Positions 7,843 through 23,811 of a stretch of DNA of 64,000 nt are shown here, one piece after another. The DNA lies in contig JAADHN010000167.1 of NCBI GenBank assembly GCA_013151865.1, positions 1-64,000 of the forward strand. Direction: 5' to 3'. The notes under the pieces were generated by a model. The model had not been told where the DNA came from, searched no databases, and saw only the letters and a program-made list of their open reading frames with translations. Both the position numbers and the translations under genes were made by a program. The stretch's first letter is position 1. Every line of letters begins with the position of its first letter. Source of the stretch: Kiritimatiellota bacterium (GTDB taxonomy: Bacteria; Verrucomicrobiota; Lentisphaeria; Oligosphaerales; JAADHN01).

Positions 7843-8676
7843 GTGAATCCTGTAGCTTTCATGGCATGGCGTATCGGCGCTGAAGCCGCTCTGCTCCCGC
7901 AGATTGCGTGGATTCACGCACACGGTTTCGATGCCGTCTCCTTTCACACGTCGCCTGGACCGCAGGCCGCACGGGCCGGTTTCGACGCGGCCGCCGCCCC
8001 TCCGGAAGCCACGGCGGCCCTCGAACGCGCGTTGCGTCCGTTCCGGCAGGTTGAATTGCACGCCCCTTTCGAGGCGTTTCCGCTTGCGGTCCCTCTTCCG
8101 CCGGCCTGGAGCCGGGAAGATCATCCCCTGGGGCCCACCCTGCGTTTGGCCGAACGAATCCGGGCCAACGTAATCACGGTGCATGTCACGGACCGCGACG
8201 TCGCCGGCGGACCCCATGCTTCCCGGTCCCTCCTCGCCGCCCGGCTTGCGGAGTTCGCGGCCTCCCGCCCTTCCGGCGCCCGTGTCGGCATCGAGACCAG
8301 CCGTCTCGATTATCTCGAGGTCGTGGCCCTGACCGGAGCGCCCGGGATTGGTCTCACCATGGACATCGGTCATTTTTTCCTGGGGGACCGTGCGGCCTTA
8401 AAGGCGTTCGATGGCGCCCTCGCCGCCTTGGTCCGGACTTTTCTCCCCGCGACAGTCCACTTTCACCTGCACGACGTGCGCAACGGCATCGACCACCTAC
8501 CCCCCACTGGAGAACCGGGCGAAGTCGATTTCAATGCCTTTTTCCAGGCCACATGTGCAGGGGAGTACGACGGGGCGTTCTGCTGGGAACTCAACCCGGA
8601 CCGTGCGACCCCGAAAGAAATCGCCGCAACCCCGCACTTCACCCGCAGCCATTTGCGAGACGCCGGGTGTGGATGA
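7843..8676 (+). CDS. Xylose isomerase-like TIM barrel (sugar epimerase/isomerase family)
   Basis: A 277-residue protein of the AP-endonuclease-2/xylose isomerase-like superfamily. GTG at 7843 is preferred because GAGGGGG lies just upstream; ATG at 7861 is the alternative. Barrel strands with metal-binding patterns are visible: GFDAVSFHTS, VELHAPFEAFPL, NVITVHVTDRD, VGIETSRLDYLE, GLTMDIGHFFL and TVHFHLHDVRNGIDHLPPTGEPGEVDF, ending in GAFCWELNP. His, Glu and Asp residues on strand ends would bind a divalent metal. Members epimerise keto-sugars or act on inositol derivatives; the substrate here is unknown. It sits between a FabG-like reductase and a LamG protein, a context of sugar catabolism. 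Confidence 0.75.
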   Translation: MNPVAFMAWRIGAEAALLPQIAWIHAHGFDAVSFHTSPGPQAARAGFDAAAAPPEATAALERALRPFRQVELHAPFEAFPLAVPLPPAWSREDHPLGPTLRLAERIRANVITVHVTDRDVAGGPHASRSLLAARLAEFAASRPSGARVGIETSRLDYLEVVALTGAPGIGLTMDIGHFFLGDRAALKAFDGALAALVRTFLPATVHFHLHDVRNGIDHLPPTGEPGEVDFNAFFQATCAGEYDGAFCWELNPDRATPKEIAATPHFTRSHLRDAGCG

Positions 8677-8737
8677 CGAATCCGCGCCGGTCCGAGGGGC
8701 TGTGAGCGGCCGGGGTGCGGCAAGGAGGCAACCCGCC

Positions 8738-11700
8738 ATGGCACGTCGTGACTGGCCTTTGGTGGTCGCAGTGTGGGCGGGGGTGTGCGCTCTGTCTTCA
8801 ATGCACGGAGCGCCGCCAAGGCCGCCCTTGACGCCGTTCGAGCCGGACAAAAACACGCTGCTGCTCTATCATTTCGACGAATCCGGCGGTGATCTCGCCC
8901 GGGACGCGAGCGGCCATGGATACCACGGCGCTATCCAAGACTGCCGGCGCGTCTCCGGTCGATTCGGCGGCGGTCTTGCGTTCAACGGCCGAACCGGGTG
9001 CGTATTCCGCAAATCCACCCCGGCGTTGCGCGACATCGCACGCCTCACGGTCGAATGCTGGTTCGCCCAAGACGATCCCACCGGCCGTCAGTTCCTGGTT
9101 GGGCTCGACGTCGGTTTTCATTTCGATCTCTCCAATGGCGAAGCGACCTCGCTGTCGATCTACAACCAAGGCGGACGCACGCCGAATGCGGCGGGATTGC
9201 GGCACCAGCAGGTCTCGACCCGCCTGGGGCGGGTACGCTCGAGACGCTGGCATCATCTGGCGGCCACATACGACGGCAGCGAAGTGAGTTTTTTCCTCGA
9301 CGGCGTCCTGGTCGACCGGTTGCCGGCGGCCCGAGATTTCCGGCTCGGGGCGGACTCGCGCGGTCTGTGGGTCGGTTGTTACATCGGACGCGAGTTCTGG
9401 TTCCGCGGGCGCATGGACGAAATCCGTGTGTCGGACTGCATCCGCTACGATCCCGAACGCCGTCTTGCGAAGGGGGGGAAGGTGTTCGACATGCCGGTCG
9501 CAAGGACGCAACTGACGCAGGAAGTGCGCCGGGCGAAAACGCACGGCAAAGCACGCCTCGGTCTGGAACTAATCAAACGCCACGGCGGCGCGGGCGCGGG
9601 TTGGGTGTGCCTGAAACCGCCGGGACGACCGGCGGCGATCATCGGCAAGTATGCACTCGACGAGAAAGGAAAAGGTCGAAAGTACCATCTTGAATTCGAT
9701 GTGTCGGACGAATACAGGGGCGACGGTCTCTACCTCGTCGGTCTCTACCCCACGACAGAGTCTGCGTATTTCACCCTGACCAGCGCGCTGTTGACGGCTG
9801 CCGGCAAGCCGGTGGCGGCATGGTCCGGCCGCGCGGAAAGCCGACGCACGTTTCGCCCGCCGGTGCTCGCCGCCCTGCGGGTGGGGCCGGTCCCGGGAAA
9901 GGCGATTACCGACAAGAAGGGGGGGGCCATCGTACGAACCCCGCGCGACGTGGATCGATTCCAGGGAAACATCGAAATCGATGACGAACTTCCCGACCAA
10001 CCGCCGGTACTGTGGGGGGACGGGTTCGCGGAATACTGGATCCATGTTCCCGTCAGGACCGTGTATCGCGTCTTCCTGCGGTACGCCGCGACGGCGCCGC
10101 ACCCTTGCGACTTGGTCGTGGACGGCGACGACCTGCATCCGTTCAACATGTGTGCCCGCAACGCCACCGGCGGTCCCGGCGCGGTCAACGCGTTCTGGGA
10201 ATACCAAGGGCCCCTCACACTCGAACGCGGCGTACACTGGATCCGCCTGCAGGACGTACTCCCGGACACGGTGGCCCTGCGCCTTGAACCGGCGGCGGCT
10301 CCACCGCCGCCGTACCGCACGCCTCGGGCTCGGTTCCCGGAGCCGGGGGAAGACGTGTTGGCGGGCGCCCGGAACTGGCGCGTCCAACCCACGTTGGGCC
10401 GGATCCGCGACGCAACAGCCGCGGCGAAAAGAACGCCGGACGGAACGATCCTGCGCTTTGCAGCCACGTTTGCCAACACGGACCGGAAAAACCTGTTCGC
10501 CGGGGACTGCGTCCGGTTCGTCCACGCTCTCAGAGCCGACTTCGAACCGTTCGGCCGACTGCGGTTTGCGACCGAAGACCGGGGCGCCGGGCATGTCGTC
10601 AGCCTATGGCTGCTGGACGCCAAGGGGGATGAAAAGCTGCTTTGGCGCGGGCGGGACGAGACCGTCGGACGGCGGGAAATCAGCGTACCGGTTTCGTTCG
10701 AAGGCAATGACGTGTTCGATCCCGGTCACGTGGTGGCCGTCGCCGTAGAACTGGACGAAGGCAATGTCCGGGCAGAAAACGTCAACCGCTTCGAAGTCAA
10801 GCTCATCTCACCGCGCTTCGAGCGGCGGGACGCGCTGCGTCTGCCGCCCGACCGGAGCGCGCAGGTCGCCCGCGCCCTGGCGATGGCTGCGACCGTCCAA
10901 CCTCGGAGCGGCGGCGCCGCCTTGCGCAGTCCCGGCTTTCGGCCCTGGGCCCGGCCGGTAGTTCCGGAAGAATACCCAACCTTTGCCGCGGCCGATCCCA
11001 AGCCGGTCACCCGCGCCGCCCTGGGGTACGGGCTGCACTTCACGGGGGCGCGAGGAATCAACCCCAACACTCTCGACGATTTCCACCGGCGGTATGATTT
11101 CGGCGACATCTGCTGGCCGCACATCGGAATGCTGCCCCAGCGCAACCGGTTCAAGAGCGAAACAGACTACACCACTGCCCTGACGCGCCTGCGGGACCGA
11201 CTCCGAGACGTCCGGGGGCGCAGTCTGTTCCTCTTCGATATCTGGGGATACGTGCCGCACAATCCCCGCTTCCCCTGGAAAGTGGCCGCAGACCATCATG
11301 CGATCCTGTTGCGCGTTTTGGGCGACCACTTCCTCGGGTACGACAACGGCGAGCAGGACGGACGATATATCGGTTCGTACGCGGACCGCGGCGCCTTCAC
11401 GACGCGCCGGGGCGGCTGGGAAGACTTTGTGCGTTGGGACAAGTCGATCTGCGCGGACAGCATGAACTACATGAATGCCACGGGATCGCTCAACTTTTCG
11501 CATTATTATGGAGAACGTGGTTGCCGCACTTTGGGATTGGAGACGGCCCAGGGCCTGCCCAGCGACACGCTCATGTTCGCCTTTCTGCGGGGCGCCGGCA
11601 AGCAATACGGACGCCTGATCACCCAAGCCACGTCCGTTTGGAACCGGTTCGGCTACAAGATCTATTCGGGCCGGAAAACCACCGGCGCTCGCGGATACGG

Positions 11701-12871
11701 ATACGGCCCGCACAAAGGATGTTCGTTGAGCCTGCATAAGCGACTCATGCTCTGCAGCTACCTCGGGGGCCACAGTATCGTCGGGACCGAAACGGCGCAG
11801 TTTACCGCGGACCGCCTCGAGAACGGTGCGCCCGAATTGAGTCCGCTGGGCCGTCAACACCTGCGCATCCGCCAGTGGGTGAAGCGCCATCCGGACCGCG
11901 GTGTAATGTTCACCCCCGTGGCGTTCATGCTCGACTTTTACAGCGGCTGGACCGTGCCTCGGCACCTCTACCGGAGGGACAAATACAAAGTGTGGGGCAA
12001 GCTGCCGTATGGACGGGGCGATTACATGGCGGACCAGGTGTTCCGCCTGGTGTGGCCGGGATACCAGGATTGCAGCTACCTCCGCAACGAACGCGGATTC
12101 ATCACTCCCACGCCGTTCGGCGACATCTTTGATGTGCTCACAAACCGCTGTCCGCCCCATGTACTGCGACAATACACCGCAATCATGCTTGTGGGCCGAA
12201 TCGAGATGACCGCCGGGATCGTGCGGGACTTGCTCGCATTCGTCCGCGCCGGCGGCGACGTGCTCCTCGATGTCCGCCTCGCCCGAGCCTTCCCCGGCGA
12301 CGCGATCCAAGTCCCGGCCGGACCGCGAACGCTGGGGCATCTGACCCGCGTGTGCGCCACGGGTAAGACGTTCGAGGAGCCCCCTTTCCACTTCGAGGAC
12401 ACGGTCCCGGTCGGGGCCGCCCCTCTGCTCACGGACGAACGGGGGCGGACCCTTGTCAGCGCCAGGACCGTCGGGCGCGGACGCATGATCGTCTCCGTCA
12501 TCGACGGTTGGATGACCGATCGGCTCGAGTATGAGCATCCGGACCTCGTGAACATGGAACCACCGTACCGCCTGTTGCACGGGGTCCGCGCACTGTTGGC
12601 CGGGTACTTCGATTCCTTCAGTCCGGTCGCAATCTCGCCTCCGGGTCTCACTTTCCGCACTTGCCTTTATGCCGATGATCCGCGGCGAATGTTGGTCGGC
12701 TTGCTGAACGACGACCTGTTCGCCACATGGGAGGGCGCCGTGCGCGTGCGGGTCGGCCATGTCGTTCGGGTACGGGACATCTGGCGCGACCGTCCCCTCC
12801 CGTCCGGTCGCAATATTCCGGTCGCCATCGAACCGGGCGGGGTCGCCCTGCTCGACGTGCGGCTGGAATGA
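8738..12871 (+). CDS. Very large secreted LamG-domain protein, putative glycan-active
   Basis: A 1377-residue protein from an ATG preceded by AAGGAGG. Residues 7-25 are a signal peptide ending near MHGA. A LamG/concanavalin A-like domain spans about 37-240, with LLLYHFDESGG, ASGHGYHGAI, LTVECWF, WHHLAATYDGSEVSFFLDG and GRMDEIRVSD. Further beta-rich modules follow to about 750. From about 760 there is a region that looks like a glycoside hydrolase barrel (GYGLHFTGARGINPNTL, LFLFDIWGY, DNGEQDGRYIGSY, GGHSIVGTETAQF) followed by a GATase-like beta-galactosidase-type domain (IVRDLLAFVRAGGDVLLDVR) and a final beta domain. I could not assign the barrel to a GH family. It probably binds and cuts a polysaccharide outside the cell. 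Confidence 0.6.
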   Translation: MARRDWPLVVAVWAGVCALSSMHGAPPRPPLTPFEPDKNTLLLYHFDESGGDLARDASGHGYHGAIQDCRRVSGRFGGGLAFNGRTGCVFRKSTPALRDIARLTVECWFAQDDPTGRQFLVGLDVGFHFDLSNGEATSLSIYNQGGRTPNAAGLRHQQVSTRLGRVRSRRWHHLAATYDGSEVSFFLDGVLVDRLPAARDFRLGADSRGLWVGCYIGREFWFRGRMDEIRVSDCIRYDPERRLAKGGKVFDMPVARTQLTQEVRRAKTHGKARLGLELIKRHGGAGAGWVCLKPPGRPAAIIGKYALDEKGKGRKYHLEFDVSDEYRGDGLYLVGLYPTTESAYFTLTSALLTAAGKPVAAWSGRAESRRTFRPPVLAALRVGPVPGKAITDKKGGAIVRTPRDVDRFQGNIEIDDELPDQPPVLWGDGFAEYWIHVPVRTVYRVFLRYAATAPHPCDLVVDGDDLHPFNMCARNATGGPGAVNAFWEYQGPLTLERGVHWIRLQDVLPDTVALRLEPAAAPPPPYRTPRARFPEPGEDVLAGARNWRVQPTLGRIRDATAAAKRTPDGTILRFAATFANTDRKNLFAGDCVRFVHALRADFEPFGRLRFATEDRGAGHVVSLWLLDAKGDEKLLWRGRDETVGRREISVPVSFEGNDVFDPGHVVAVAVELDEGNVRAENVNRFEVKLISPRFERRDALRLPPDRSAQVARALAMAATVQPRSGGAALRSPGFRPWARPVVPEEYPTFAAADPKPVTRAALGYGLHFTGARGINPNTLDDFHRRYDFGDICWPHIGMLPQRNRFKSETDYTTALTRLRDRLRDVRGRSLFLFDIWGYVPHNPRFPWKVAADHHAILLRVLGDHFLGYDNGEQDGRYIGSYADRGAFTTRRGGWEDFVRWDKSICADSMNYMNATGSLNFSHYYGERGCRTLGLETAQGLPSDTLMFAFLRGAGKQYGRLITQATSVWNRFGYKIYSGRKTTGARGYGYGPHKGCSLSLHKRLMLCSYLGGHSIVGTETAQFTADRLENGAPELSPLGRQHLRIRQWVKRHPDRGVMFTPVAFMLDFYSGWTVPRHLYRRDKYKVWGKLPYGRGDYMADQVFRLVWPGYQDCSYLRNERGFITPTPFGDIFDVLTNRCPPHVLRQYTAIMLVGRIEMTAGIVRDLLAFVRAGGDVLLDVRLARAFPGDAIQVPAGPRTLGHLTRVCATGKTFEEPPFHFEDTVPVGAAPLLTDERGRTLVSARTVGRGRMIVSVIDGWMTDRLEYEHPDLVNMEPPYRLLHGVRALLAGYFDSFSPVAISPPGLTFRTCLYADDPRRMLVGLLNDDLFATWEGAVRVRVGHVVRVRDIWRDRPLPSGRNIPVAIEPGGVALLDVRLE

Positions 12872-13043: not shown

Positions 13044-14219
13044 TCAGCCTGTTGAGTCGGACGGCGACGCGACAATCTCGCCACCGGCCACGACTTCCCC
13101 ATTCTCGTCGTAGAGCACCAGGTGCTGGCCGGGAGTCGGGGCAAACTGCGGCGCGGAAAAGCTCACGACGATGCGGTCGGGTTCCGCAGCCGTCACACGA
13201 CATGGTTGGGGCCGCATCACGGATCGAAGTTTGGCTCGGAACTCTCCGCCACGGAGGGAGTCGGGGGTACGCAGATAGTTTGGCGCCACGGCCGAGACCG
13301 TGCTTTTCATCAACGCCTCGCGCCCCGCCACGATCACGGCATTCCGAGTAGGATCCAAATGCACTGCATAGAGCGGGCGCTCGGATGCGACCCTCAGACC
13401 GCGGCGCTGCCCGACCGTGAAGTTGCCGATCCCCGTGTGGCGCCCGAGTTCGTTGCCCTCGAGATCGAGAATGGGACCCGCCCCCCCCATCGCCGCTCCC
13501 AAGGCCTGTCGGTAGTCTCCGCCACCGGTGAAACACAGCTCCATGCTGTCCGGCTTTTCAGCCACCGGCAAACCGATCTCGCGGGCAATCTCGCGGACCC
13601 GGGGCTTGGTCAACGAACCGAGCGGCAGTTGAAGTTGCGGCAGTCTCTTTCGGGGAACACCGTAAATGAAATAGCTCTGATCGCGGTCGACGTCCCGGGC
13701 GATTCGAAGAGACGCGCCCCGATCTGTCCGAGCAACGACGGCGTAGTGCCCCGTGGCCAGGCGGGCGGTCCCGAGTTCCTGCTCCAAAAGGTCCCAAACC
13801 AGTCGGAACTTGAGAATCGTGTTGCAGGCAATACAGGGGTTCGGGGTCCGACCGTTTCGGTATGCCGCGCGAAACGGGGACAACACGAAACGCCGAAAAG
13901 CCGCCGTCGATTCGACAAAGTAATGCGGTACCCCCAGTTCTCTGCACACCTTGGCCGCATCGAACCCGCAGCAGGACGACGCGCCGGAGACGCAGTCGGC
14001 GACAGGGATGCGCATGGTGATTCCCACAATCCTGTACCCGGCACGCTGGAGCAACACGGCCGCCACACTGCTGTCCACGCCGCCGCTCATCAACACGGCC
14101 ACTGCCTGGTCGGCCGGACCGGCGTCACGTTCCCAGAGCGGAGCCTCAAACGTCGGCGGCAGAAGCCGGACGCCGTCCGCTTCGGAGGTCTTCGTCTGTG
14201 CCCCGCGCTTTGGATTCAT
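13044..14219 (-). CDS. mnmA: tRNA-specific 2-thiouridylase MnmA
   Basis: A 391-residue enzyme. ATG at 14219 gives the normal length with a slightly long N-terminus before the PP-loop. Motifs: the PP-loop LMSGGVDSSVAAVLL, a nearby Cys-rich insertion (ADCVSGASSCCG), NPCIACN with the first catalytic Cys, the LATGHYAVV strand, DQSYFIYGV, and SMELCFTGGG with the second catalytic Cys. The C-terminal half holds the two beta-barrel domains with NFTVGQRRGL. It adds sulfur to U34 of Lys, Glu and Gln tRNAs, taking persulfide sulfur relayed from a cysteine desulfurase through Tus-type carriers. It is the last gene of the sulfur operon (337 bases after sir-tusA), which makes the neighbouring TusA domain notable, since TusA is an upstream donor for MnmA in gamma-proteobacteria. 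Confidence 0.93.
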   Translation of the reverse strand: MNPKRGAQTKTSEADGVRLLPPTFEAPLWERDAGPADQAVAVLMSGGVDSSVAAVLLQRAGYRIVGITMRIPVADCVSGASSCCGFDAAKVCRELGVPHYFVESTAAFRRFVLSPFRAAYRNGRTPNPCIACNTILKFRLVWDLLEQELGTARLATGHYAVVARTDRGASLRIARDVDRDQSYFIYGVPRKRLPQLQLPLGSLTKPRVREIAREIGLPVAEKPDSMELCFTGGGDYRQALGAAMGGAGPILDLEGNELGRHTGIGNFTVGQRRGLRVASERPLYAVHLDPTRNAVIVAGREALMKSTVSAVAPNYLRTPDSLRGGEFRAKLRSVMRPQPCRVTAAEPDRIVVSFSAPQFAPTPGQHLVLYDENGEVVAGGEIVASPSDSTG

Positions 14220-14556: not shown

Positions 14557-16971
14557 TTATGAGGGACGATTGCGCACCTTGACTTCCCAGTGCCCGTCGC
14601 CCAAGTCATTCATCTCCAACACCTGGTATCCCTCGGAGCGGAAACTGACCGGGACATTCCGAATCGGTTCACCCTCGTCGAGAATGATGGCCAGGATTGC
14701 AGACGGAGGGAGTTCTTCCATCTGAAGCTTGGCCCGCACAAAGTTGAGCGGACAGGGGACGCCTTTCAGGTCGAGCACTGTTTCTCCCTCTTCTCCGCCC
14801 GTGCCTGCACTCTCGCGCTCCTGTGTGGAGGCTTCCGCCGACTCGGACGTTTCGGTTGCCGGTCCGGCCCCGGACTTGGGCGGGTGGAAATTCAGGTCCG
14901 AATCCATCGTGCCGAAGAGCACTTCGAGTTCCTCGAGCAGGCGCGCAATCTCGGTCTCGGCGTTCGCCAGGGCCGCAGTCCACCCGTGTACCTGGCCGCG
15001 CGCCCGGGCAAACAAGTCTCGGAAACTCGAGTCCACCAGCCCGGGGTCCAAAAAATGGACTTCGAAACCATGGAGGATGGCATCGGGGTCCGCGCTGTCC
15101 ATTCCCCGGGTAATGAGCAGGGCCCCGCAGGCTGCCAGGAGCGCCTGAAGGGGCGCACCGCCCTCCTCCGCCCCCGACGGATTCTCCAGGAGACGCACCG
15201 CCTCTCGAAGTCCTTCCTGGATGACTTCCACGACCCCCGCCCCACACTCGCCCGGCCCGCGCCCGGCCAGCGAAAACTCGGCTTCGTCGCCCCAGTCCCG
15301 GTAAAAGTCCGGGGCCGCGTCGTACTCGGGCGTTCGGTCGTGACGCAGAACCAATTTCCGCAGGGACTCCACCCCCAAACGCTCGACGTATTCGGCATAA
15401 GTCTCCCCGGGACGCCGGTCGCGGGCAAACTGTCGCACCATTTCCACCAGCAGATCGGGGACGACTCGCGCCGGCACACCTCCCAACAGCGTCCCGAACC
15501 GTGTGCGGCCTGCCCCACGTCGGGCCCCGGCCAGAACGTTGTATCGCGGAACCAGGCGTCCGGCTACGCGGCGGGCCGAACCGAAAAGGCCGATGTCGCC
15601 GACCGGGTGCTGACCGCAACTGTTCGGACAACCACTGACGCGAATATCTACGGCATCCAGAACATCTTCATGCAAACCGGCCTGTCCCATTGCGGTCGCA
15701 CATGCCCGGCAAAGCGGCCGGGACAGGCACAGCCCCAACTTGCACGTATCCGCCCCCGCGCAAGCCGTGAACGCCTCGAGCGGCGCCGGCCCGTCGTCGC
15801 CTCCGCCCAGCCCGATCTCCCGCAGCGCCCGGACCACCGCGGACTTCCGGGCGGTCGGAACAAAACGGATGAGCAGGTCCTGATTGCGCGTCGTCCGCAG
15901 TTCCGTTTCGTCCGACATGCTTTCCGCCACATCTCCAACGGCTTCGAGCGTATCGGCATGGAGTTCTCCAAGCGGCAACGACACCACGAGCGCCACATAC
16001 CCGGGCTGCCGTTGTTCCAGCCATCCGAATCCCGACGCGTCCCGGCAGAGGCCGGGCCCGCTCTCTGCGCAAACGCCACCAGCGTCCGGATCCGCACCGT
16101 CGAAGATCTCCACGCCGCCGAGGTCGGGCAGCCCGTCGTATGCGGGACCGGTCGAGGCCAACGCCCGGTCCACGGCTTGCCGGAACGAGGACATGCCGAT
16201 CCGCTCGACAGCGAATCTGAGCCTGGCGCGGGAGCGGTCCTTTCGGTCGCCGATCCTGTCGAAAACGCGCCGCACCGCTTCCGCAATGGGTACGCTTTGT
16301 GGCGCCGGAACAAAATCGTACAACAGTTCGCCGACCCGAGGCGCCGCACCCATTCCCCCTCCTGCATAGACGGCAAACCCGGGGACTCCATCCCGAACCA
16401 CGGCCACGAACCCGAGATCCTGGACCCCGGTAAGTGCGCAGTCCGCATCGCAACCGCTGAAGGATATTTTGTACTTGCGCGGCAAATGAAAGCTGCCGGG
16501 CAGTCGAAGCAGGAACGTTGTCACTGCGTGAGCCCAAGGGGTCACATCGAACCGCTCCTCAGGGCAAATCCCGGCATACGGACAGGCCGCGACATTGCGC
16601 ACCGTATTTCCGCCGCCGCCACGGGGACTGAGGTTCGCTTTACGAAGCCGCGAAAGGACTTCCGGGGTATCGCCAATTCGAACGTCATGGATCTGGATGT
16701 CCTGCCGAGTCGTCAAATGCAGCCGTCCGCTGCCCAGTTCCCGGCTGACAGTCGCCAGACAACGGGCTTGCCTCGGCGCCAGAACGCCGCCCGCAATCCG
16801 AACTCTGACCATGTACGTTCCCTCACGACGCTGTTCGTAGATGCCGCGGGGGACACGTTTGGCCTTGAAAAACCCGGGCGCCAAGTCCCCGTCCAAGAAA
16901 CGTTGGACGTCCCGCCGATGCTCGGCAATATCCTGGTCGGTGTCCGGTGGTAGGTCGCTCCAAATGCTCAT
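14557..16971 (-). CDS. sir: Siroheme sulfite/nitrite reductase fused to a C-terminal TusA domain
   Basis: An 804-residue protein from ATG at 16971, with AGGAG 11 bases before it. The first 560 residues are a ferredoxin-type siroheme reductase: two half-domains and 4Fe-4S/siroheme regions, RNVAACPYAGICP, KISFSGCDADCALTG, then the cluster cysteines CAGADTC (C-x5-C) and GCPNSCG (C-x3-C). A helical linker follows. Residues about 727-804 are a TusA-like fold (VLDLKGVPCPLNFVRAKLQ) with Cys740 in CPLN where CPxP is usual. The reductase would make sulfide by six-electron reduction of sulfite (nitrite is possible), and the fused sulfur carrier could take sulfur over for transfer. Its place in a homocysteine operon with HcyS argues for sulfite. 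There is no flavoprotein subunit, so ferredoxin is the likely donor. Confidence 0.85.
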   Translation of the reverse strand: MSIWSDLPPDTDQDIAEHRRDVQRFLDGDLAPGFFKAKRVPRGIYEQRREGTYMVRVRIAGGVLAPRQARCLATVSRELGSGRLHLTTRQDIQIHDVRIGDTPEVLSRLRKANLSPRGGGGNTVRNVAACPYAGICPEERFDVTPWAHAVTTFLLRLPGSFHLPRKYKISFSGCDADCALTGVQDLGFVAVVRDGVPGFAVYAGGGMGAAPRVGELLYDFVPAPQSVPIAEAVRRVFDRIGDRKDRSRARLRFAVERIGMSSFRQAVDRALASTGPAYDGLPDLGGVEIFDGADPDAGGVCAESGPGLCRDASGFGWLEQRQPGYVALVVSLPLGELHADTLEAVGDVAESMSDETELRTTRNQDLLIRFVPTARKSAVVRALREIGLGGGDDGPAPLEAFTACAGADTCKLGLCLSRPLCRACATAMGQAGLHEDVLDAVDIRVSGCPNSCGQHPVGDIGLFGSARRVAGRLVPRYNVLAGARRGAGRTRFGTLLGGVPARVVPDLLVEMVRQFARDRRPGETYAEYVERLGVESLRKLVLRHDRTPEYDAAPDFYRDWGDEAEFSLAGRGPGECGAGVVEVIQEGLREAVRLLENPSGAEEGGAPLQALLAACGALLITRGMDSADPDAILHGFEVHFLDPGLVDSSFRDLFARARGQVHGWTAALANAETEIARLLEELEVLFGTMDSDLNFHPPKSGAGPATETSESAEASTQERESAGTGGEEGETVLDLKGVPCPLNFVRAKLQMEELPPSAILAIILDEGEPIRNVPVSFRSEGYQVLEMNDLGDGHWEVKVRNRPS

Positions 16972-16999: not shown

Positions 17000-17407
17000 T
17001 CAATCAAGCACCTCGACCGGTATAGCGGACGGCTTCCCGGCGTCCACACGGTACGCGCATAGGGCCGCCCTGTCCGGTCCGGGACGCAAGGATAGAATGA
17101 CGTACGCCACGCCGGGCGTATACGCCAAACGCAGATCCTCGTCCGACATTCGGGCCGGAGAGGCCGGGTGACTGTGCCAAATGCCGATTACTTGCAACCC
17201 GCACCGGCGGATTTCCTTGACCGCCCGAAACTGTTCCTCCGGTCGCATACTGTAGTGGTCTGGAGAGGCGTCCGCGTTGGTCATGGGATAGAACTTCTGC
17301 ACGATCCCGTCACGTCCGGCCAGCAAGCCGCACGCTTCGTTTGGGGCATGGGTCCGAGCTGCGTCCAAGAGTTGCTCGAACACCTTTCTCGGAATGGAAA
17401 CACGCAT
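17000..17407 (-). CDS. hcyD: JAMM metalloprotease for the sulfur carrier (HcyD-like)
   Basis: A 135-residue Mov34/MPN (JAB1) zinc protease. ATG at 17407 fits the usual start of the fold (MRVSIPRKVFEQLLDAA). The JAMM site is complete: Glu24 in NEACGLLAG, then HSHPASPARMSDED giving His78, His80, Ser88 and Asp91. Bacterial relatives (Mec+, QbsD, HcyD) cut sulfur-carrier or ubiquitin-like proteins just after the Gly-Gly. It ends 29 bases before sir-tusA and follows the E1-like gene after a 293-base gap in which I see no gene. The job inferred here is to remove the tail of the HcyS-like protein encoded two genes upstream, freeing its glycines for activation. The upstream Shine-Dalgarno is weak. 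Confidence 0.85.
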   Translation of the reverse strand: MRVSIPRKVFEQLLDAARTHAPNEACGLLAGRDGIVQKFYPMTNADASPDHYSMRPEEQFRAVKEIRRCGLQVIGIWHSHPASPARMSDEDLRLAYTPGVAYVILSLRPGPDRAALCAYRVDAGKPSAIPVEVLD

Positions 17408-17700: not shown

Positions 17701-18561
17701 TCAGGCAAGACCGTGCACGTCTCGCTTCGCGGCCCCCACCGCACAGGCCGCACCGTTCGGACGCCCCGCTTCGGCAGTGTCGAGGTGCGTGATGGTCGGC
17801 TCGGGACCGCACAGGGGGCACCGGGGGTTTCGCCGAACGCGCACGGTCCGGAACCCCATTCGCAACACATCACACACCAACAAGCGGTTCGTCAGCAGGT
17901 CGCCTGCCCCGATCAAGGCCTTCAACGCTTCCGCGGCCTGGATCACGCCCAGCAACCCAGCCACGGCCCCCAGGACACCCGCTTCGGAACAGGTCGGCAC
18001 CGCCCCGACCGGCGGGGGCTCGTGGAAAACACACCGGTAGCAGGCGGTCTCCCCGGGGAAGACCGTCAACGCTTGTCCCTCAAACCGCAGGATCCCGGCA
18101 TGGCAATACGGTTTTCCCCCGAAATGGCAGGCGTCCGCGATCAGAAACTTCGAGGCGAAGCTGTCCGTTCCGTCCAAAACGAAATCGTACCCCTCCAGTA
18201 TGCCCGCCGCATTGTCGGGACGGAGCCGGTCGGGGTAGGTCACCACCTGCACATCCGGATTCAGTTCCCGGAGCTTCTCCGCAGCGGACTCCACCTTCGG
18301 ACGGCCCACGTCGGGCGTAAAATGCAGGACCTGCCGCTGCAGGTTGCTCAGGTCCACCTCGTCCGCATCCATCAGACCCAATGTTCCGACCCCGGCCGCC
18401 GCCAGATAGAGCGCCGCCGGCGCCCCCAAACCGCCCACCCCCACAACCAGGACCCGGGAACGCAACAGCTTCTTCTGTCCCGCCCCGCCGATGCCGGGCA
18501 GAAGGATCTGCCGCGAGTACCGCTCGATCATCTCATTGCTCAAAACCAATGGCGCAGTCAT
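17701..18561 (-). CDS. hcyF: E1-like (ThiF/MoeB) sulfur-carrier adenylyltransferase (HcyF-like)
   Basis: A 286-residue ThiF/MoeB-family enzyme. ATG at 18561 lies one base after the hcyS stop, and its ribosome site AGAGGAGG is inside the last codons of hcyS, so translation is probably coupled. Motifs: MIERYSRQILLPGIG at the start, nucleotide-binding GVGGLG (41-46), DADEVDLSNLQRQ with the adenylation residues, DGTDSFASKFL, GVLGAVAGLLG, the conserved Cys191 in VPTCSEAG, and two zinc pairs (Cys174/177 in CYRC, Cys248/251 in CPLC). It would adenylate the C-terminal Gly of HcyS with ATP, so that sulfide can form the thiocarboxylate. About 35 residues beyond the last zinc pair are of unclear value. 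No rhodanese domain is attached. Confidence 0.87.
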   Translation of the reverse strand: MTAPLVLSNEMIERYSRQILLPGIGGAGQKKLLRSRVLVVGVGGLGAPAALYLAAAGVGTLGLMDADEVDLSNLQRQVLHFTPDVGRPKVESAAEKLRELNPDVQVVTYPDRLRPDNAAGILEGYDFVLDGTDSFASKFLIADACHFGGKPYCHAGILRFEGQALTVFPGETACYRCVFHEPPPVGAVPTCSEAGVLGAVAGLLGVIQAAEALKALIGAGDLLTNRLLVCDVLRMGFRTVRVRRNPRCPLCGPEPTITHLDTAEAGRPNGAACAVGAAKRDVHGLA

Positions 18562-18562
18562 G

Positions 18563-18859
18563 TCAAAACGACGCCTCCTCTGCATCATGCCACTCTTTCG
18601 ACTCCGGACGCCGGCGGAGGGCGACGGCGCTCCCAAGATCGCCCGCCGTTCGATCCGCACCGCCGCCCATCAGGTAGATGAACTCGACCCGGTCCCCTTC
18701 CTGGAGTTTGCGCTCCCGAAATTCGATCCGAAAGAGGATGTGGTCGTTCAACTCGACCGAGACCATCTCGGGCCGTTCGACTTCTTCACTCTCCAGCAAG
18801 TCTTGGACGGTCAAACCGTCTGGCTTCTCTTTAACAATCCCGTTGATTTGGATTTGCAT
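18563..18859 (-). CDS. hcyS: Ubiquitin-fold sulfur carrier with C-terminal tail (HcyS-like)
   Basis: A 98-residue protein with a ThiS/MoaD beta-grasp fold in residues 1-67: MQIQINGIVKEKP, LTVQDLLE, VSVELNDHILFR, LQEGDRVEFIYLMGGG. The functional glycines of such carriers lie at the very C-terminus, but here GGG (65-67) is followed by 31 more residues (ADRTAGDLGSAVALRRRP...EEASF). Carriers with anything after Gly-Gly need a protease first, and a JAMM protease is in the operon. In the Wolinella homocysteine pathway the carrier is likewise made with an extension removed by HcyD, as I recall a single residue; this tail is far longer. The tail codons also contain the ribosome site of hcyF. Starts 73 bases after metY. 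Confidence 0.85.
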   Translation of the reverse strand: MQIQINGIVKEKPDGLTVQDLLESEEVERPEMVSVELNDHILFRIEFRERKLQEGDRVEFIYLMGGGADRTAGDLGSAVALRRRPESKEWHDAEEASF

Positions 18860-18932: not shown

Positions 18933-20186
18933 TCAGAGCACTTCGAGCGCCTGCTCGAAGTCGGACTTCAAATCTTCGAACGCCTCGATTCCGACGGACA
19001 CCCTCACCAAGTCTTCGGAAACCCCCATCGCTTCGGCTCGCTCGGGGGACGCCTCCCGACAAAAAGTGGACGCGGGATGAATCACCAACGTCCGGACGTC
19101 GCCCAGATTGGCCAAACGTTTGGCGAGTCGCAACCGATTCATGAAGCGAAAACAACGCTCCTGCGACCCCAGGCGCAACGTGAGCAATCCACCGTAACGG
19201 TCGCCAAATTGGCGTCGCGCGGTCTCATGGTCCGGATGCGTGCCCAGGCCGGGGTACCGCACTTCCGCAACCTTTGGGTGAGCCGACAGGGTCTGGGCCA
19301 GGGCAAGCGCGTTGCGACAGTGCTGGTCCATGCGGAGTGCAAGCGTTTCGAGACCCAACGTGAAAAGAAAAGCATGAAACGGCGCAAGACACCCTCCAAA
19401 ATGCTGCTGAATCCGCAGCCGCAGAAATGCCGCGAACGCCAGCCGACGATAGCGCTCCAGAAACTCGGGAGGGATTTCCACACGGCCGGCAGTCCAGTCG
19501 TACACTCCCGTGTCCACCACGATCCCCCCCAGCCCCGCGCCGTGCCCGCCCACGTACTTGGTTAAAGAATGAATCACCAGGCTCGCACCCAACTCGCCGG
19601 GACGTATCAAAGCGGGCGTCGCGGCCGTGGCATCCACCGCGAGCGGAACGCCGTGCACGGCCGCCAACTCGGCAAGCGCCCCAATGTCCGGCACATCCAG
19701 TTTAGGGTTCCCGATCGCTTCCACGAAAAGCAGACGCGTCCGGTCGGTGATGGCACGACGCCACCGATCCGGGTCCGTGGGCTCGACAAAACGGGTTCGA
19801 ACGCCATACCGGCCAAAGAGTTCCTCCAGAAGCACGAACGTCCCGCCGAAGAGGCTGGTGCCGGCAACAATCTCGTCGCCCGGGGCCGCCACGGCCAAAA
19901 CGATCGCCGCGATCGCCGCCATCCCCGAGGCGGTCGTCACGCTTGCCACAGAATGCTCGATTTCCGCAAAGTGGCGCTCGAACAGCTCGATCGTCGGGTT
20001 CTGAATTCGGGCGTACACGTAGCCGGGACGTTCCCCGGAAAACGCGGCAGCCAATTCTTCCGAAGAATCGTAACCGAACGAAACACTCAGGTTCACCGGA
20101 AGCGCCGTGCCGCCGGCGGCGGGGTCGTACGGCACGACCGGGTGAACCAATTCGGTGGCCAAAGACCATTTTCGGACCGCCTGCAT
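18933..20186 (-). CDS. metY: O-acetylhomoserine sulfhydrylase-type PLP enzyme (MetY)
   Basis: A 417-residue Cys/Met-metabolism PLP enzyme, first gene of the operon, with AAGGAG eight bases before ATG. Fold marks: YARIQNPTIELFER, TASGMAAIAA, the SHSLTK-type strand VIHSLTKYVGGHG with PLP Lys210, and the C-terminal HPASTFCREASPE and VRVSVGIE. The SLTK-GGHG phrase and the substrate loop fit O-acetyl/succinyl-homoserine sulfhydrylases better than cystathionine lyases, and the setting (HcyS, HcyF, HcyD, Sir) points to use of a protein thiocarboxylate rather than free sulfide to make homocysteine. No homoserine acyltransferase or methionine synthase is in the window. Transcribed from a good promoter about 155 bases upstream. 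Confidence 0.85.
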   Translation of the reverse strand: MQAVRKWSLATELVHPVVPYDPAAGGTALPVNLSVSFGYDSSEELAAAFSGERPGYVYARIQNPTIELFERHFAEIEHSVASVTTASGMAAIAAIVLAVAAPGDEIVAGTSLFGGTFVLLEELFGRYGVRTRFVEPTDPDRWRRAITDRTRLLFVEAIGNPKLDVPDIGALAELAAVHGVPLAVDATAATPALIRPGELGASLVIHSLTKYVGGHGAGLGGIVVDTGVYDWTAGRVEIPPEFLERYRRLAFAAFLRLRIQQHFGGCLAPFHAFLFTLGLETLALRMDQHCRNALALAQTLSAHPKVAEVRYPGLGTHPDHETARRQFGDRYGGLLTLRLGSQERCFRFMNRLRLAKRLANLGDVRTLVIHPASTFCREASPERAEAMGVSEDLVRVSVGIEAFEDLKSDFEQALEVL

Positions 20187-20343: not shown

Positions 20344-20376
20344 TGTATAGTTTAGCAAGCCTCCGAGGTTTGTCAA
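20344..20376 (-). promoter_or_regulatory. Sigma-70 promoter of the metY sulfur operon
   Basis: On the minus strand TTGACA (20376-20371) is followed after 16 bases by TAAACT (20354-20349) and then TATACA. This is one of the few AT-rich islands in the window. A perfect small inverted repeat ATTAT-TC-ATAAT lies at 20319-20331, just after the expected start site, where an operator could be. The leader to metY is about 150 bases with GC-rich stems; no known riboswitch was recognised. The divergent plus-strand gene starts at 20608. Confidence 0.6.
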
Positions 20377-20607
20377 GCCAGCCGAATCAAAAAAAAGGAA
20401 ACGGATCTGCAATTGGAATCGGCTGGACTTTCTAATGTCCAGGCGGCAATTTACGGCGTACCGCGGCATTGTCCGCCGCCGAAAAGAGCGGGAACGCGCA
20501 CTGCATCAGGAGCAAACGTGGAACGAACCGACCAGCGACACTTCGTTTTCGGTTTGCGGTCCGGGAAGAAGTTTCCCGCCGGACTTCCGTCGGCAACTTC
20601 TCGAAAC

Positions 20608-23600
20608 ATGTTGCCCCGTCTACTCCTGTCGGCCTTGTGGACATTGGTTCCGGCGTTCGGGGGCGAGGGACGCGGGGGGCTTGTTCCAAACGGAGATTTC
20701 GAGCGCGGTCTCGACGGTTGGCGTCTCACCGGGCAGTCAGTATTTGCCGCCCTTGACCGTCCTCCCGGGGCGCATGGCGCCTGCCTCCGCTTGGCGCCTC
20801 GGAGCGGTTTGGTAGGCGTCGAACTCGAACACTTGCTGCGGGATGGCGTCGAGGTCGACTTGCTCGACACCTGGGAACTCAGCGTCCGGATTCGCACCGG
20901 CCGCATCACTGGCGGCGCGTTCAACGCTCTGCTTTACTGTTATGGGCCGGACGGACGGTACGTCGCGATGAAGTCGTTCTACACTGCGGGCGCGCCGCAC
21001 GCCGGCGCGGATTGGCAATCAGTACGTCTGGTCTTCGGGCCGGACGGTGACTGGTCCCCCCCGGCGGAGACCGCCCAAATCAAGATTCGTTTCTCCTTCT
21101 GGTCCGAAGACGGCCGATGCAACGGCGCCGCGTGGGTGGACGACGTCCGCCTGATCCGGCGGGCCGGGTCCGAACTCGACCGCCGTTCGACCGGTCCCCA
21201 CCATCAGCCCGACAGCGTGGCGGTCTGGGATGACCCCGCCGTATGTGGCGCGCCGGTCGCGGGACTCGAGTTTTTTGCGGAATTCGCACGAAAACAGGGC
21301 TTGGCCGCAATCAAGCTTTCGACCCGTGAACTGTGCGACCCGGAGATCCTCACCCCCGCCCGCTTCACCTTGCTGATTCTCCCGTATGGTCCCGCCTTCC
21401 CGGCCCGGGGCAAAACGGCCCTGCTCCGCTATCTCCGTCGCGGGGGCGACCTGATCGCCGTCGGCGGTGCGGCGTTCGAAACACCACTGATCGAGGTGGA
21501 CGGACGTTGGGGGACGCCGGCGGATTTTCTCGCCCCGGAAATCGCTGCAAAGATTGCGGACTTCGAGCGTGGGCTGCCGGCCGGACTTCTGCGCGACCAC
21601 CGGGTCGAAGGCGCATCGGGCAGCGCCCGGCACATCGAGCCGGGAGCAAATGGCAGCCGCGGCGCGCTCCAATACATGTCGCCCGACACGGCGACCTTCG
21701 AGTACGTGGGCCTGCCGGTGACCGCCCCGTCCCCTGTCGACACGGCGCTGGTATTCGATGCCGGCGGCATCGGGGAGCGCCCCTGGCTCTGCGTCGAAGC
21801 CCAGGAACGAAACGGCTCGCGATGGAAGGCTGTCGTTCGCCTTTCGACGACCTCGAAGTGGGAGCGTTTCGTTTTGCACGCGAGCGACTTCTTCGCGTAC
21901 GCCGCCTCCCCGAAAGACCGCGGGGCTCGATTCCGGCCGGAGCGTACCGCACGACTCTATTTCGGCTTGACGCGGAAGATGAACGGCCCGGGAAAGCACG
22001 GCTTCATTCTCGACAACGTGGGCTGGGTACGGTGCCGCTTGGCGGTCGACGACCGGGAACGCCGGAACGGGCTGGCGCCGGTGGGCTTTCTCGAAGCGCT
22101 GTATTTCGGTGGGAAACTGATTGAAGGGGCCAATCTCGGCGGGCCGTGGACCCTGTTCGATCCCAGCGGCTGGGCTCACGAAGCCGACGCGTTCGAGCTG
22201 GTCTATGGGAGGCCGACCGACGACGACCTCGGCCAATTCTTGAGGTTCGAAAGCCTGCAGCGGTTTCGCGCGCCGGGGGAACGTCCGCGGATCGACGGTC
22301 GGAAGCGAACCGGCCCCCACATTCTTCCGGCCGGTTTCAAACGCCAGCCGCTGCTGCGCGCGTCGGACGTCGAGGCCGGCGCCCTGTTCACGTGGACGCG
22401 ATGGCCTTTCCGGGGCGCCACGTGTGCATTCTTGGGGGGCGAGTCGCCGGAACTCACGCAGGGCGTCCTACGGCGTCTTGGTCCCGCCTTGTTCGACATC
22501 GTGACTCGCGGCCCCGCCATCGCCGGGGTCCGCCCTGTTTTTGGCGTCGAGGACGACCAGTGCACGATGGCCGGACGGATCACGGTGCTCAACAACGCAG
22601 GACGCTCGGCCTCGGTCCATGTGCGTTGCAGCCGGCGCGACGCAGACGGGAAGCGGACAGTGGGGACATCGCGGCTCACCGTGGCCCCCGAGGGGGTCGG
22701 CGCTGTGGATGTGTCCCTGGGCCTGTCCGGGCCGCCGGGCAGCCCGTATCGCTTCGATGCTGCCGTGGAAGGCGAGAACGCCCGGAAAGGTTCGGTGCAG
22801 AGTTCCGTCGACCCCGGCCGGACATTCCGAGATCTGGCCGACTGGTTCGTCGGCCGCCAGCGCGACGACGGCAAGTTTTCCGGCATCTCCTTCATCGACA
22901 GTCGTGCCGCGCGAGGCCTTTTCGCCGCTTTCGAGCTGTTCCACCGCGAAACGTACCGCCGCGCCGCGCTGCGCTGGGTGGACGCCATGGTTGAAGCACA
23001 GCGCGGAGACGGCGGATACCGCATGGGATATGCCGATGCTCAGGGGGTCTGCTACGTGGCGGACGGCGGAGAAATCGCCCTGGGAGTAGTTCGCGCCCTG
23101 CGCTATGCGGACACGGCTCGGCGCAAACGCTATCGGCTGTCGCTCGAGGCCTATATGCGCTTTCGGGAAAGCTTTCGCAACGACACGGGCGATATCGGGG
23201 TGGGATGGTGCCTTCGTGATTACATCGCAAACAAACCATTCGACCGACTCACCCGTGAAATGAGGGGCCGCCCGTTCACCCTCGGCTGCACGCTGGGCGC
23301 CGCCGCGGCGGTGTCCGCGTTGGACGAAAAGTATGCACGGCAGACCGTCAGAGACGCCCGGCGATTCATGGCCGGCCAACGACTCACGCCGGGCGTCTTC
23401 GCCGAAGCCCTGATGTGGACGCGCCATTTCACGGACAATCCTGCTTTACGCCGCGAAATCGAGGCTCGTCTTCGCCAATCCCTGCTCGAGTTCACCAAAG
23501 ACGACGCGCGCCCCTGGTGGACCGGCAGCGGCGGGCGGCACGTCGTGACTTTGGCGGTACTCGCATACGTCCGGAAAATCGCGGGACGGGATCCGCACCT

Positions 23601-23811
23601 GCTCGCCGCACTGAAACGCGTGGAGTGGGCGTTGTGCGCCGCAGCGTCGCCTTACGCCCTGATGCGCGTGGCCCGACGCAACACGCTCGAGCACGACGAT
23701 TGGATCTACCTCTGCTACAGCCTCGTCAGCCTGCCCGAGTTGCTTGAGGCGGGGATCACGCTCCGTCCGCTCGGCACGGCCACGGGCAACCGCGGGGCCG
23801 TCCCCCCCTGA
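20608..23811 (+). CDS. Large secreted protein: CBM-like N-terminus, GATase-like middle, alpha/alpha toroid end
   Basis: A 1067-residue protein. ATG at 20608 is chosen because a signal peptide follows (LPRLLLSALWTLVPAFGGEG); there is no clear ribosome site. Residues about 25-190 look like a CBM4/9-type jelly roll (LVPNGDFERGLDGWRLTG and AAWVDDVRLIRR). A GATase-like domain follows (FTLLILPYGPAFP, LRYLRRGGDLIAVGG) as in some beta-galactosidase families, then a second jelly roll. From about 800 a helical toroid is suggested by FRDLADWFVGRQRDDGKF, YRRAALRWVDAMVEAQRGDGGYRMGY and repeats of Gly/Asp turns, as in terpene-cyclase-like or lyase folds. I cannot name a catalytic family. Likely acts on, or binds, an extracellular glycan. 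Confidence 0.55.
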   Translation: MLPRLLLSALWTLVPAFGGEGRGGLVPNGDFERGLDGWRLTGQSVFAALDRPPGAHGACLRLAPRSGLVGVELEHLLRDGVEVDLLDTWELSVRIRTGRITGGAFNALLYCYGPDGRYVAMKSFYTAGAPHAGADWQSVRLVFGPDGDWSPPAETAQIKIRFSFWSEDGRCNGAAWVDDVRLIRRAGSELDRRSTGPHHQPDSVAVWDDPAVCGAPVAGLEFFAEFARKQGLAAIKLSTRELCDPEILTPARFTLLILPYGPAFPARGKTALLRYLRRGGDLIAVGGAAFETPLIEVDGRWGTPADFLAPEIAAKIADFERGLPAGLLRDHRVEGASGSARHIEPGANGSRGALQYMSPDTATFEYVGLPVTAPSPVDTALVFDAGGIGERPWLCVEAQERNGSRWKAVVRLSTTSKWERFVLHASDFFAYAASPKDRGARFRPERTARLYFGLTRKMNGPGKHGFILDNVGWVRCRLAVDDRERRNGLAPVGFLEALYFGGKLIEGANLGGPWTLFDPSGWAHEADAFELVYGRPTDDDLGQFLRFESLQRFRAPGERPRIDGRKRTGPHILPAGFKRQPLLRASDVEAGALFTWTRWPFRGATCAFLGGESPELTQGVLRRLGPALFDIVTRGPAIAGVRPVFGVEDDQCTMAGRITVLNNAGRSASVHVRCSRRDADGKRTVGTSRLTVAPEGVGAVDVSLGLSGPPGSPYRFDAAVEGENARKGSVQSSVDPGRTFRDLADWFVGRQRDDGKFSGISFIDSRAARGLFAAFELFHRETYRRAALRWVDAMVEAQRGDGGYRMGYADAQGVCYVADGGEIALGVVRALRYADTARRKRYRLSLEAYMRFRESFRNDTGDIGVGWCLRDYIANKPFDRLTREMRGRPFTLGCTLGAAAAVSALDEKYARQTVRDARRFMAGQRLTPGVFAEALMWTRHFTDNPALRREIEARLRQSLLEFTKDDARPWWTGSGGRHVVTLAVLAYVRKIAGRDPHLLAALKRVEWALCAAASPYALMRVARRNTLEHDDWIYLCYSLVSLPELLEAGITLRPLGTATGNRGAVPP

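Follow-up and report, generated by a model that had tools for sequence, protein, structure and literature searches.

A sulfite reductase with HEPN-like and TusA domains encoded in an HcyS-type gene cluster

A thiocarboxylate pathway of the HcyS type, leading to homocysteine, was reportedly described in Wolinella by Krishnamoorthy and Begley in 2011. The gene cluster of this organism is said to comprise MetY, a ubiquitin-like carrier with residues after its GG, an E1, a JAMM protease and a sulfite reductase (SIR); the carrier tail after GG is reportedly one Ala, and free bisulfide from Sir is said to suffice. The window, i.e. the whole stretch of 64,000 nucleotides from a Kiritimatiellota bacterium analysed here, holds an operon in the order MetY, ThiS-like carrier, ThiF/MoeB E1, JAMM and a SIR-HEPN-TusA fusion. 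With MetY, carrier, E1 and JAMM together this cluster is of the HcyS type. As in Wolinella, MetY, a tailed carrier, E1, JAMM and SIR are clustered, but the SIR of the window bears HEPN and TusA domains, the carrier tail counts 31 residues instead of the one Ala reported for Wolinella, and sulfur may arrive as persulfide. The pathway type is already known, and SIR-HEPN-TusA represents a variant of it.

The CysO-CysM-Mec+ system likewise consists of a ubiquitin-like carrier, a PLP enzyme and a JAMM protease. It is mentioned as a cysteine pathway of Mycobacterium tuberculosis in an excerpt of PMC6225789. Carrier, PLP enzyme and JAMM are in common with our cluster, and two related loci even carry in-frame fusions of ThiS to the cysteine synthase CysK adjoining SIR-TusA (L032, 1162-2340; L033, 8330-9508), whereas MetY and an own SIR-TusA mark out the cluster of the window.

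The canonical motif of TusA proteins is CPxP. The domain described here shares the fold and the Cys-Pro that opens the first helix with the TusA/YeeD/YedF family (PF01206), but shows CPxN(F/Y)VK instead of CPxP and is fused to SIR or encoded within SIR/JAMM operons. In the window it reads CPLN, so that the second proline of CPxP is absent. In DsrAB-DsrC, too, the cysteine of a small protein accepts sulfur from a siroheme reductase (excerpt of PMC13188885), while here the carrier protein is a different one, covalently tethered and in an assimilatory setting. A fusion of CoA-disulfide reductase, rhodanese, TusA and DsrE likewise joins TusA to a redox enzyme, but the siroheme enzyme is absent there (excerpt of PMC6158253); large non-SIR TusA ORFs, perhaps of this kind, carry CPGP. 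Among the matches listed in the open-access literature, no description of a SIR-TusA or SIR-HEPN-TusA protein was noticed.

Domain layout and operon of the fused gene

In a single ORF, the SIR is continued by a HEPN-like domain and, across a disordered linker, by TusA at the C-terminus:

14557..16971, minus strand: the fused SIR-HEPN-TusA gene, 804 codons and a stop, read from its ATG at 16971 down to 14557
15616..15762, minus strand: siroheme/4Fe-4S cysteines C404, C410, C448 and C452, invariant in 32 aligned SIRs
15244..15246, minus strand: codon of C576 in a GECGAG motif, which is found in 36/39 fused ORFs
14902..15243, minus strand: HEPN-like helical domain, residues about 577-690, from fold matches to 2hsb and 3o10
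14782..14904, minus strand: linker, residues about 690-730, mostly disordered (pLDDT < 50 at 701-727)
14572..14781, minus strand: TusA domain with CPLN motif, residues about 731-800, from Pfam PF01206 and the predicted fold
14752..14754, minus strand: codon of the TusA cysteine C740 (Cys of CPLN), kept in 38/39 fused ORFs

Two NIR_SIR_ferr/NIR_SIR repeats were found by Pfam in the 804-aa protein, and these two ferredoxin-like plus NIR_SIR units together with the four cluster cysteines characterize it as a siroheme sulfite reductase. Matches to the NCBIfam equivalogs for CysI, NirA and similar enzymes all stay below their cut-offs. The two siroheme/4Fe-4S cysteine pairs named by the first-pass annotation are confirmed by the alignment. 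The same holds for its assignment of the last 78 residues (78 codons plus stop, 14557-14795) to a TusA-like domain with Cys in CPLN: residues 733-801 match PF01206 with an E value of 2e-15 and 56.8 bits against a curated cut-off of 28.6, and a PF01206 profile search places the match at 14572-14778. The region in between had been called a helical linker. Most of it is a folded HEPN-like domain, and only the last 40 or so residues before TusA form a disordered linker.

An AlphaFold2 model was calculated from an alignment of 32 homologs (mean pLDDT 88.1, pTM 0.83). Its SIR part (model residues 10-519) matches the plant nitrite reductase 3b0h with Z 40.2. The predicted C-terminus has the strand and helix order of TusA, with the conserved C740 located where the first helix of the domain begins, and the TusA fold expected there was recovered: superposed on E. 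coli TusA 3lvj, model residues 727-802 gave Z 11.8 (75 residues at 2.2 A), residues 728-803 gave Z 12.9 with YeeD 8k1r (76 residues at 1.7 A), and TusA/YeeD/SirA-like chains in general gave Z 11.1-13.4. For residues 578-690 the best helical matches are of the HEPN type (2hsb, Z 10.2; 3o10, Z 9.2), although Z values below 13 are common for helical bundles. A separate model of the C-terminal third gave the same domain matches as the full-length model. Since residues 701-727 have a pLDDT below 50, the TusA domain looks in the model as if it hangs on a flexible tether.

The following features lie around the fused gene:

20349..20376, minus strand: promoter-like site upstream of the operon (2 sites in the region against a shuffle mean of 0.8)
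18933..20186, minus strand: MetY-like O-acetylhomoserine sulfhydrylase (TIGR01326 match under its cut-off)
18563..18859, minus strand: ThiS-like sulfur carrier, HcyS-like, with 31 residues beyond GGG
17701..18561, minus strand: E1-like adenylyltransferase of the ThiF/MoeB family, HcyF-like, from Pfam and NCBIfam profiles
17000..17407, minus strand: JAMM metalloprotease, HcyD-like, from Prok-JAB
13044..14219, minus strand: MnmA tRNA 2-thiouridylase (from profiles), the next gene, probably outside the operon; this adjacency is rare in relatives

Fusion and mnmA are separated by a gap of 337 bp. A search for terminators in this interval was uninformative: the scanned region holds 7 sites, and shuffled sequence 7.1. 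Large ORFs are present at both sides of the operon region (8411-12871, 1486 aa; 20413-23811, 1132 aa).

Distribution of the fusion and its operon among relatives

A first sample of 59 related genomes and 22 loci of named records yielded 26 ORFs of at least 737 aa with the same tail. With a further search of 387 genomes and neighbourhood DNA the total came to 42 fused ORFs, of which 39 are distinct after removal of the duplicates L089-L091; L036 and L042, truncated before the C-terminus, were left out of this count. The domain order thus recurs in 39 distinct genes from several phyla, the named hosts including Lentisphaerae, Planctomycetota, Hydrogenedentota, Omnitrophota and a deltaproteobacterium placed in Myxococcota by the tree tool. 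CPxN with its cysteine, and not the usual CPxP, is found in 38/39 fused ORFs, which answers positively whether the cysteine is conserved in homologs. L049 is the sole fused homolog that lacks it. This locus belongs to family f11 (L048-L051, L103), a divergent SIR-HEPN-TusA group with carrier, E1 and JAMM all absent nearby. A quick-method SIR tree with 55 rows requires at least 6 changes in the presence of TusA, suggesting that the domain was gained or lost several times.

Many SIR-HEPN proteins lack TusA. We also considered C576 (GEC) as a TusA-specific relay. This role is weakened, since C576-type motifs also occur in TusA-less SIR-HEPN proteins and GECGAG is missing in 3/39 fused ORFs. The TusA-less proteins of L203-L210, for instance, retain a GECAG cysteine motif in their HEPN region.

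After exclusion of five fused ORFs at the upstream end of their contigs (L021, L023, L026, L046, L104), 34 fused loci could be assessed, and all or part of the operon was present in 24 of them. A carrier is encoded in the same orientation no more than 8 kb away in 21/34, only ThiF and/or JAMM are present in 3/34, and none of these in 10/34. Dropping the duplicates L055-L057 leaves 13 short SIRs that have neither HEPN nor TusA. Carrier, E1 or JAMM was found in the DNA covered for 0/13 of them, with at least 4 kb of upstream DNA in only 6/13 (two via duplicate longer loci). The E1 cysteine is kept in 26/26 ORFs (22 by pattern, 4 by reading), and the JAMM motif HSHx7SxxD in 26/26 JAMM ORFs of the compared loci. 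All 30 distinct carriers (31 less one duplicate) have a tail of at least two residues beyond GG, which in some is long; trimming should therefore be needed, as is said of the Wolinella scheme. The tail of 31 residues of the window carrier (18563-18859) compares with one to six residues in many relatives, and the tail in L043 is also long.

Several operon members are joined in frame elsewhere: JAMM to SIR in L022 (7485-10349) and L042 (6027-7007), ThiF to JAMM in L095 and ThiS to ThiF in L099. In L022 a 955-residue open frame reads JAMM-SIR-HEPN-TusA. In several loci the fusion is succeeded by CysK; in L035 and L040 the fusion lies beside CysK and a strong carrier match is absent from both genomes. 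PAPS_reduct-family genes adjoin the fusion in L030 and L040. In L142 and L143 (genomes G112 and G368) HcyS cluster and fusion are on different contigs, and the neighbours of the cluster are of the CysD, CysN and MetX/MetW type by reading of the sequences; for L142, Pfam finds PAPS_reduct, GTP_EFTU with APS_kinase, and abhydrolase with MetW. TusA also occurs as a separate protein. L087 encodes MetY-ThiS-ThiF-JAMM, followed by a SIR of a different type, 297 aa long and with a single ferr/NIR_SIR unit plus ferredoxin clusters, and by a separate TusA (CPVTFVK). In L088 a TusA (CPMTFVK) stands immediately ahead of ThiS-ThiF-JAMM-MetY, and no SIR was found within the 14 kb read.

Carrier and TusA also co-occur at the genome level. 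The carrier profile gave 18 matches at E <= 1e-24 in the 387 genomes, the next match being 4.5e-17; weaker matches mostly stop at the match end, like ordinary ThiS. Carrier and HEPN-TusA (profile A2) were found together in 17 genomes, the carrier only in 1, A2 only in 8 and neither in 361 (Fisher p 1e-22, not a clean probability, as the genomes are related and not independent). Of the 17, 15 have TusA fused to SIR and 2 (G247, G121) a separate TusA. The genome with carrier and without TusA match is G200, where the contig ends beside the carrier. The 8 with A2 and without strong carrier are five of family f11, G306, G148 (no TusA) and G165 (HEPN and frame broken).

A second set comprised 246 genomes of one phylum, centred on a Planctomycetota genome. 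The full fusion is present in 7 (one cut by a contig end), 4 of which have a strong carrier, and all 4 strong carriers of this set occur with the fusion; weaker carrier matches of about 1e-19 without fusion were seen in G481 and G641. Eleven further genomes match the helical part only, and all 8 that were read end without TusA. Taking both sets together, a strong carrier is present in 19/28 genomes with fused TusA vs 0/14 with SIR-HEPN and no intact TusA, the latter being G148, G165, G417 and the 11 helical-part-only genomes (Fisher p 3e-5, for genomes that are related and not independent). SIR-TusA without HcyS carrier was seen in 6/21 genomes of the first set (G047, G051, G054, G056, G306, G343) and 3/7 of the second. 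These 9/28 genomes point to a broader role of the TusA domain.

A proposed sulfur route and its alternatives

We consider it probable that the fusion is the sulfite reductase of an HcyS-type homocysteine pathway, with the TusA cysteine relaying sulfur to E1 and carrier. Sulfite would be reduced at the siroheme of SIR, and the tethered TusA cysteine would receive the reduced sulfur as persulfide and offer it to E1 (ThiF/HcyF), which would by then have activated the HcyS carrier as its C-terminal adenylate. The resulting HcyS thiocarboxylate would donate its sulfur to MetY-bound O-acetylhomoserine. The JAMM protease would have two tasks, exposing the carrier C-terminus and freeing homocysteine. 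A persulfide on C740, this direction of flow and a contact between TusA and E1 are what we infer from the arrangement, while the steps after TusA would proceed by analogy to the reported Wolinella chemistry. The first-pass annotation had proposed that reduced sulfur is kept protein-bound and channelled either to HcyS or to the tRNA thiolase encoded next. Protein-bound retention is chemically plausible, and the cell may never release this sulfur as free sulfide. As for the target, the genomic link between fusion and HcyS pathway is well supported by the MetY-HcyS-E1-JAMM operon in the window and many relatives and by the co-occurrence of carrier and TusA, whereas such support is missing for the tRNA branch. 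The 9/28 fused genomes without strong carrier, the lost cysteine of L049 and the pairing with CysK in L035 and L040 argue against a strict coupling.

E. coli TusA serves MnmA. Supply of the adjoining MnmA for tRNA 2-thiouridine would fit the neighbourhood in the window and in L029, where mnmA is 1.6 kb from the fusion, but it lies within 2 kb in only 2/39 fused loci and within 8 kb in 4/39. Moreover, the genome encodes a second, canonical TusA (CPRP), the CPxN motif is unlike the CPxP of other TusA proteins seen, and the gap in the window measures 337 bp. Since the adjacency is not conserved, MnmA was rejected as main acceptor and is a most improbable target. Equally improbable is that the enzyme is a nitrite reductase with an incidental TusA fusion. 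Plant nitrite reductases are its best PDB matches by sequence and by fold. A Lys at the position of the nitrite reductase Asn is typical of sulfite reductases. In a 140-residue stretch aligned with PDB sequences, the window protein and Mycobacterium NirA 1zj8 read LPRKYK, the plant nitrite reductases 3b0g and 3b0h LPRKWN, and the 3vlx group, titled as an N226K mutant, LPRKWK. The distinguishing residue is hence Lys and not Asn, K166 and K168 being invariant in the 32 aligned SIRs, and the neighbours are MetY, CysK, CysD/CysN-type and PAPS_reduct genes. Both observations make a nitrite reductase unlikely.

The remaining readings accept a sulfite reductase in a sulfur operon. SIR could give ordinary sulfide, and diffusion or proximity would bring this to the E1-HcyS adenylate, TusA being only a docking or assembly domain that brings SIR to the E1/HcyS complex. 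This predicts an identical operon linkage; the Wolinella scheme is said to run on bisulfide from Sir, and TusA is absent from many SIR-HEPN proteins. Pure docking would not require the cysteine, which is kept in 38/39 fused TusA domains and in the separate TusA proteins of L087, L088 and L194-L199, so we regard this reading as rather unlikely. Sulfur might also flow the other way, with a TusA-bound S-sulfonate, thiosulfate or persulfide as substrate for the siroheme. TusA and YeeD relatives handle thiosulfonate or thiosulfate (excerpts of PMC4175335 and PMC11073785), and the PAPS_reduct-family neighbours in L030 and L040 would agree with it. The TusA of L088, however, directly precedes HcyS with no SIR found nearby, and loss of TusA tracks the absence of HcyS, not of SIR. 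A reversed flow thus appears improbable.

Returning to the relay from SIR to E1 and carrier, the sulfur released by four assimilatory SIRs is mostly zero-valent according to PMC13188885, and this is the form that the TusA cysteine would hold as persulfide. A closed, sulfide-free line from sulfite via zero-valent sulfur, tethered TusA, E1 and ubiquitin-like carrier to homocysteine or cysteine is conceivable, and we put it forward tentatively. The fusion offers a single polypeptide for testing whether assimilatory SIRs pass on zero-valent sulfur and not sulfide, as claimed in 2026 (PMC13188885), and allows a test of whether the ubiquitin-like thiocarboxylate carriers of amino-acid synthesis can be charged from a persulfide carrier. 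It further hints at how methionine may be made in these bacteria, many of which are known only from metagenomes.

The CPxN TusA can serve as a marker for the sulfur step. That it is exclusive to HcyS operons was considered and dismissed, since it also occurs, as a free-standing protein, in operons with small SIR, CysK and JAMM in which ThiS was not found. No ThiS-like carrier was found near L194-L199. In L195-L199 (Planctomycetota) a small SIR, a DsrE-like protein, CysK, JAMM and TusA (CPINFVK) form a row, and L194 is similar except that the DsrE-like ORF was not seen. A looser sulfide-free line with separate TusA, DsrE-like protein, small SIR, CysK and JAMM may operate in L195-L199. The DsrE-like protein was called by Pfam in L195, and its counterparts in L196-L199 share a similar start.
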